A stretch of DNA of 64,000 nucleotides, from positions 1 through 64,000 of the forward strand of contig JALBWU010000009.1 in assembly GCA_022678445.1 (NCBI GenBank). Reading direction: 5' to 3'. This document shows, piece by piece, positions 31,259-54,501 of the stretch. The DNA comes from Candidatus Aramenus sp. CH1. GTDB lineage: Archaea; Thermoproteota; Thermoprotei_A; Sulfolobales; Sulfolobaceae. Every line of letters begins with the position of its first letter. The first letter of the stretch is position 1. The position numbers and the translations under genes are program-made. The notes under the pieces are model-generated. The model saw only the letters and a program-made list of their open reading frames with translations. It ran no database searches and was not told where the DNA came from.

Positions 31259-31351
31259 TGCGTGATGACGGCTGGTATTTATGAACGGTGAATTAAGACA
31301 CCAATGCTGACAAAGATAAGATTTTTTAAATGTGGGAGCCTTCAATGTAGC

Positions 31352-53116: not shown

Positions 53117-53764
53117 ATGGGACAGATGCAGTGGATAAAGGAGATGAGCTTCACCTTCAAGTGCGACCTCAACTCAATAACGTTTAGGTGTAACACCGGT
53201 TCCAACATACTTGAGCTAGAGTGGAGGGACAACAAGTTAAACGTCAGCCTCTTTAGCCCTACGCAAAGGGTAAACTACAGTTCTGGAAGGCTGTTTGACA
53301 TGCACAACCTCTCTGTGAAGAGGGGTAAGGAGGCAGAGGACTTCCTGCGGGAGGTCTTTGCCCAGCTATCGAAGGAAATCCAGGAAGGGGCAGAAGAGCT
53401 AAAAAGCACGTACGACCTTCCTGTAGCAATCATAAAGGAATTCGCAAGGGACATGTGCAACTTCGAGTTTAGACCGTCAAAGTTCTTCGACATAGGCATC
53501 AAAGAGCTGGAAATAGAGCTAAATAAGGAGTTCCTGAAGGACAGACCGGGTCTATACTCTGAAAGAAAGCTAAAGTTACTGATAAGAAAGGAGGACAACG
53601 TCTGCTTGAAGGTGGTGTTCTGGTTGGAATCCAGGAGGAAGGAGACACTCTATTCCCCAGACTGCGTTAACTACCAGGACGTTACATCCGAGGATATATC
53701 GAACTCGTTGAGGTCCTTAAACGAGTACGTGACGGAGATAAGGAATTTCGTGATCAACAGTTAA
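53117..53764 (+). CDS. hypothetical protein
   Basis: I do not recognise this protein of about 215 residues. It has a beta-rich first third, a helical middle (EAEDFLREVFAQLSKEIQEGAEEL) and a final helix, and four scattered cysteines. TTTTTATTAG about 25 bp upstream points to a leaderless start at ATG 53117; a TTG one codon before is possible. No membrane segment is present. Confidence 0.6.
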   Translation: MGQMQWIKEMSFTFKCDLNSITFRCNTGSNILELEWRDNKLNVSLFSPTQRVNYSSGRLFDMHNLSVKRGKEAEDFLREVFAQLSKEIQEGAEELKSTYDLPVAIIKEFARDMCNFEFRPSKFFDIGIKELEIELNKEFLKDRPGLYSERKLKLLIRKEDNVCLKVVFWLESRRKETLYSPDCVNYQDVTSEDISNSLRSLNEYVTEIRNFVINS

Positions 53765-53786
53765 AATCTTCTGAGCTAATGAGAAG

Positions 53787-53844
53787 TTAAGTGATGAGGT
53801 TCCACCCCATATGAGCGGTGAAATTGACCTCGATCTCTGACTAC
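53787..53844 (+). ncRNA. C/D box sRNA candidate 1
   Basis: Between two genes lies box C GTGATGA (53791-53797), a 13-nt guide, D'-like ATGA (53811-53814), C'-like GGTGAAA (53817-53823), a 13-nt guide and box D CTGA (53837-53840). A GTTAAAAT run centred about 26 bp before fits a promoter. This is the layout of archaeal sRNAs that guide 2'-O-methylation. The rRNA or tRNA target could not be determined. Confidence 0.6.
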
Positions 53845-53898
53845 TCGTTGCTTCGGTATGCTCAGATTTTATTTACCTATAGAAGAAAAAGTATATGA

Positions 53899-53955
53899 CA
53901 TAATGATGAGGTCGAGCACTACATGAGCTATGATGAGAGGACCACCTCTGAAGCT
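53899..53955 (+). ncRNA. C/D box sRNA candidate 2, overlapping a CDS start
   Basis: Box C ATGATGA (53903-53909), 13-nt guide, D' ATGA (53923-53926), C' ATGATGA (53930-53936), 11-nt guide and box D CTGA (53948-53951). It shares the C-to-D' spacing and the ATGAGC core with candidate 1, 112 bases upstream. TTTTATTTA centred near 53871 would start transcription near 53898, four or five bases before box C, the usual sRNA 5' end. The D' box coincides with the annotated ATG of the next gene. Confidence 0.65.
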
Positions 53956-54501
53956 GTTATAGAAATCAACTTCAACTTGTACGCCTTTAGGGAATCCGTT
54001 TCCAATTACCAAGTGGACTATCAAGGTGGATGGATCGTACTTAAGGGAAAGGAGGGAGAATACCTCAGTAGGGAGTTTGATAACTACGCTGTACTAGTGT
54101 ACCCAGTTAACGCTCCAGAAGACCTCCTTGAGGCCTTATCCGTTAAAAACGAGAAAATAGATAAGTTCAGGGAGGTTCTATACAAGCCAAGGTATTGGAG
54201 GGAGTCGGTAACAATCCACTTGGTGAAGGATAAGCTAGTAACGGGGACCGACATAGAGCTGGTTCCGTTCAACGGAGTTGACCTCGTAAACGACATATTG
54301 AGGACAGAAGGTGCAGAATTCAAGACCATTGACGACAACCTAGCAATCTCGGTTGCAGTGGAAAGGCCGTTGACTGCCCAGAATTTAGGGAAGGCGCTAT
54401 ACAAGTTGTCGGTCTGCCTATCGTTATATTTCAGGATCAAAGAGGCACAAGAGGACATCGCACTAAAGATAGCACAAGAAGCGCTCTCAGAACTTCAGTG
54501 A
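53923..54501 (+). CDS. hypothetical protein
   Basis: I do not recognise this 192-residue protein. It is mixed alpha/beta with an acidic character and no membrane segment. Its first nine or so codons lie inside the sRNA candidate at 53899-53955, so either one transcript serves both or the true start is further downstream. Its end overlaps a convergent membrane protein gene by 7 bases. Confidence 0.6.
   Translation: MSYDERTTSEAVIEINFNLYAFRESVSNYQVDYQGGWIVLKGKEGEYLSREFDNYAVLVYPVNAPEDLLEALSVKNEKIDKFREVLYKPRYWRESVTIHLVKDKLVTGTDIELVPFNGVDLVNDILRTEGAEFKTIDDNLAISVAVERPLTAQNLGKALYKLSVCLSLYFRIKEAQEDIALKIAQEALSELQ

Follow-up and report, generated by a model that had tools for sequence, protein, structure and literature searches.

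Two small RNA genes in tandem on the plus strand of the window (that is, the whole 64,000-nt stretch of Candidatus Aramenus sp. CH1 DNA analysed here) very probably encode two C/D box guide RNAs, of which the first (A) uses its D′ guide on 16S rRNA and the second (B) probably acts on tRNA, the 3′ part of B being at the same time the start of an open reading frame (ORF) in Aramenus (genus g1 of our set) and in the related genus g10. Both are of a kind already known in archaea, including the overlap with an ORF start; here, the overlap is conserved across eight species.

about 53788..53843, plus strand: C/D box sRNA A (sR16-type), recognized by its boxes, its guide and an Rfam-matched homologue
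about 53899..53954, plus strand: C/D box sRNA B, recognized by its boxes and its presence across the family

In each gene the boxes C, D′, C′ and D follow one another in this order, with guides of approximately 10–14 nt and a total length of 50–60 nt. In A, box C (GTGATGA, 53791-53797) is followed after 13 nt by D′ (ATGA, 53811-53814), GC, C′ (GGTGA, 53817-53821), the second guide and D (CTGA, 53837-53840), D′ and C′ being degenerate; in B, box C (ATGATGA, 53903-53909) is followed after 13 nt by D′ (ATGA, 53923-53926), GC, C′ (TATGATGA, 53929-53936), the second guide and D (CTGA, 53948-53951). An earlier sequence-only reading had described two tandem plus-strand genes of this type, 112 bases apart and with different guides, and this description holds: the boxes are in place and kept across genera, the two C boxes are spaced 112 bases apart and the guides differ on direct reading.

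A protein start inside sRNA B

53923..54501, plus strand: 192-codon ORF with its start codon within the D′ box of B
53923..53952, plus strand: stretch of ten codons common to B and the coding sequence, marked by third-position conservation

sRNA B contains the start codon of the ORF that follows it, and the D′ box of B is, as had been claimed from the letters, the ATG of a 192-residue frame: ATG 53923 opens 192 codons and is the first usable start after the in-frame stop. The same D′ ATGA serves as the ORF start codon in two species of g1 and six of g10. Across these eight species, third-position identity is 0.789 in the first ten codons as compared with 0.370 in the rest of the ORF, and the same codon is used for the same residue at 0.788 as compared with 0.419 downstream; none of 181 ten-codon windows reaches 0.789, and no other exceeds 0.496. 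This excess means that both the RNA and the protein constrain the stretch and, as judged from comparative conservation, it serves the two at once, in agreement with the earlier proposal that guide RNA and mRNA share sequence.

Members of the same ORF family in genus g5 start after the sRNA, which would fit a reading in which B is a real sRNA but the protein begins elsewhere, the overlap being apparent only. We consider this very unlikely, given that no ATG, GTG or TTG other than ATG 53923 occurs between the in-frame stop upstream and codon 19, itself inside the conserved protein core, and that the ATG is kept in eight of the eight g1 and g10 species. The ORF family yielded no Pfam, NCBIfam or convincing PDB relative, and in the search made here it was seen only in Sulfolobaceae. 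Because B exists without the overlap in five genera, the best reading is that a start codon was recruited inside an existing sRNA gene, giving the protein a ten-residue N-terminal extension, a direction of change that we infer from this distribution.

According to a review (PMC7994747) that summarizes Tripp et al. 2017, approximately 7% of the C/D sRNA genes in six species hold the start codon of a downstream ORF, mostly in a guide or after box D, and such 5′ overlap lowered reporter transcription. B differs from the cases summarized there in that its start codon is the D′ box and is kept in eight species with a measured double constraint.

Conservation of A and B among Sulfolobaceae

Among 31 genomes of the family, a sequence model of B found matches in 24 (E values of 1e-5 to 1e-16), and a model of A matched strongly in 15 and more weakly in relatives in others; each model was built from 12 of these sequences, which therefore match by construction. 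Boxes and guides are kept in relatives, with the same A guide in 15 genomes. The ORF adjoining B was found in 27 genomes, and in 15 of these, the ones matched strongly by the A model, it is preceded by A and B in tandem. sRNAs of the A and B types lie next to each other in g1, g10, g5, g4 and g7; in g5 (seven genomes) A and B abut and the ORF begins after B, and in g4, g7, g9 and g11 B is found away from the 192-codon ORF, at another locus.

These arrangements bear on a rival reading, in which the B-like motif would chiefly serve the mRNA as a k-turn leader: L7Ae would bind at the 5′ end of the transcript to repress translation, and no free guide RNA would be made. L7Ae does repress its own mRNA through a k-turn in the 5′ untranslated region, and L7Ae pull-down in S. 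acidocaldarius yields mRNA fragments with C/D-like motifs (PMC5539422); however, both guides and all four boxes of B are kept where the sRNA is clear of the ORF (g5) or at other loci (g4, g7, g9 and g11), and conserved guides would be needless in a leader, which makes this reading extremely improbable. The box pattern is rare: a strict C–D′–C′–D pattern matches once in the 64-kb window, at B, and a relaxed one three times (A, B and a candidate at 31262-31310). Although ATGA and CTGA are short and common, a chance likeness of coding sequence rich in them to C/D boxes retains virtually no probability, with 0 matches of either pattern in 60 dinucleotide-preserving shuffles of the window, and the conservation seen in several genera and at several loci already rules it out.

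In the window, A and B lie below every Rfam gathering threshold, with sub-threshold C/D matches only, which is not disqualifying because the Rfam C/D models are guide-specific; A gives no match to sR16 (RF01143) even at E values of up to 10. Its homologue in g7 (genome G007), located in one cluster with a homologue of B, is Rfam sR16 (70.5 bits against a gathering threshold of 70). A shares with sR16 the D′ guide with its core GTTCCACCC, the box order and an orthologous position, but its D guide is unrelated to that of sR16; because D guides differ between genera, we call A sR16-type and not sR16. A fibrillarin gene is encoded in the genome. In a protein search of named genomes, Candidatus Aramenus sulfurataquae was matched at 96% identity. 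As the boxes and guides are kept across genera, the g7 homologue of A is sR16 and the 16S site of A is conserved (see below), the comparative data support the reading of A and B as C/D box sRNA genes.

Some loci of the family show further features. In g4, g7 and g9 (L107, L113 and L142), an extra C/D-like sRNA with a guide near GTGGGAAGA lies between or beside A and B, forming clusters of three sRNAs whose D and C boxes nearly touch. In g10 (L006, L008, L009 and L012, approximately 1395-1457 as oriented), sRNA A shares sequence with the 3′ end of the ORF that precedes it, its C box encoding MDDE-like residues, so that the A–B cluster there overlaps coding sequence on both sides.

Guides and predicted targets

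53797..53808, plus strand: paired part of the D′ guide of A, AGGTTCCACCCC, with 16S GGGGUGGAACCU as target
53822..53836, plus strand: D guide of A, without convincing target and variable in sequence between genera
53910..53922, plus strand: D′ guide of B, GGTCGAGCACTAC, pairing with tRNA-Ala in relatives
53937..53947, plus strand: D guide of B, core GGACC[A/G]C, with the tRNA variable region GUGGUCC as candidate target

The D′ guide of A forms 12 perfect Watson–Crick pairs with 16S rRNA, including the fifth base before D′; the 16S was read from the congener G001, as 2500 bases of rRNA are masked in the window’s genome. The site is identical in five genera (that of G001 and the other four read), and relatives with the guide GTTCTACCCC keep the pairing with one G–U. 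It ranked first in a joint scan over three genera (z 6.3; next 4.2), and 1 of 1000 shuffled guides attains 12 pairs. Pairing of at least 9 nt with rRNA or tRNA, which the sequence-only reading had put forward as the check on the guides, is present here, and the D guide of A gave no consistent target in the joint scan; its divergence agrees with the rapid evolution of guides reported for archaeal C/D sRNAs (PMC7994747). The D′ guide would direct ribose methylation in the 16S segment CACAAGGGGUGGAACCUGCGG, around GGGGUGGAACC, and the fifth-base rule would place it on the third G of GGGG in the window’s genome, although the exact base is uncertain because the D′ and C′ boxes of A are degenerate. 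An 11-nt match of this guide to 23S rRNA in G001 was rejected, the site not being conserved in relatives.

For B, the core of the D′ guide, CGAGCACU, is exactly complementary to tRNA-Ala AGUGCUCG (U25, G26 and anticodon stem), a sequence that most members of the family have in two or three Ala tRNAs. In five relatives (G004, G005, G009, G011 and G017) there are 9–12 continuous pairs to tRNA-Ala AGUGCUCGG as counted by eye, whereas the pairing has one mismatch, at G28, in the window’s genome and its congener (G000 and G001); other changes leave one mismatch in g10 too, and in g5 the pairing requires several G–U pairs. The fifth base falls on G26 where D′ follows CACUA. The core of the D guide fits GUGGUCC at positions 43–49 of the Trp, Tyr, Pro and His tRNAs. 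Each tested alone against the tRNAs of the window’s genome, the guides of B did no better than shuffled guides, so that these tRNA targets remain predictions, and agreement among the guides of relatives is not independent evidence because they share descent. We suggest that the probable ancestor of the D′ guide of B was one directed at tRNA-Ala around G26 and that B is a probable guide of tRNA methylation: for most members of the family, the D′ guide would be complementary to tRNA-Ala at the D-stem, G26 and the anticodon stem, and the D guide of B to the variable-region segment of the other tRNAs. The doubly modified nucleotide m22Gm26 has been reported in thermophilic archaea (PMC7668247). 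B would thereby resemble Pyrobaculum sRNAs and Sac-sR10 (PMC7994747, PMC5539422), with guides complementary to conserved tRNA regions common to several isoacceptors, but would differ from them in its predicted targets around tRNA-Ala G26 and in the variable region.

Other candidates for B were rejected: 23S GGTGCTCGA for the D′ guide, which changes in relatives without compensation; tRNA-Trp and tRNA-Met, also for the D′ guide, with which mismatches remain in several genera; an elongator tRNA-Met reading of AGAGTGCTCGGCT, these genes being tRNA-Ala according to ARAGORN; and, for the D guide, AGGTGGTCTT just after the 23S, which is not conserved.

The third C/D-like element of the window (31262-31310, plus strand; GTGATGA-ATGA-GGTGA-CTGA) has a D′ guide, GGCTGGTATT, that is a perfect 10-base complement of 16S AATACCAGCC. 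Its box D is overlapped by the ATG (31304) of an ORF for a TrmI/GCD14-type tRNA methyltransferase, as AATGCTGA, for which a later start is possible.

Putative promoters, proposed mechanism and significance

53761..53767, plus strand: TATA-like run TTAAAAT before A, putative promoter
53867..53875, plus strand: TTTTATTTA, TATA-like run ahead of B and the ORF, putative promoter

TATA-like runs precede both genes, as the sequence-only reading had noted, and its placing of transcription starts 3–5 bases before box C is right only roughly: reckoned at the usual 26–27 bp from the run, the start of B would fall 5–6 bases ahead of its box C, and that of A at box C itself. The run before B is kept in both Aramenus genomes even though the length of the A–B spacer differs; it is clear in this genus and weaker in g10, where, in five of six species, a TTTTTTA run ahead of A falls within the terminal part of the preceding ORF (frame followed by eye). 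A promoter shared by B and the ORF is plausible on this basis. B comes straight after A in G018 and in g5, the spacer being too short to hold a separate promoter, which suggests that A and B may be co-transcribed there. In g5 (L017-L020, approximately 1375-1480), the D box of A adjoins the C box of B (CTGAGATGATGA), and the pair suggests a dicistronic precursor.

Assuming that both genes are expressed, A and B would each fold around L7Ae at C/D and C′/D′ and then recruit Nop5 and fibrillarin, methylation being directed to the nucleotide opposite the fifth guide base upstream of D or D′. In Aramenus and g10, the 3′ part of B would also provide a conserved ORF with its first ten codons, the start codon included, and a single transcript could yield sRNA B by trimming or else be translated. 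It is further conceivable, although we hold this to be rather doubtful, that sRNP assembly on nascent B and translation of the 192-residue ORF are mutually exclusive, with the amount of L7Ae and fibrillarin setting the protein output.

The locus provides a clean comparative case of one sequence used both as a structured guide RNA and as the beginning of a protein, for which g5, with the same sRNA and ORF but without the overlap, is a natural control genus. It further links an sR16-type guide with a site in 16S rRNA, and B, an sRNA without an earlier name, with a probable target in the G26 region of tRNA. If sRNP assembly and translation do exclude each other, a guide RNA gene would in addition be a 5′ regulatory switch, together with an N-terminal extension that was gained in one lineage.
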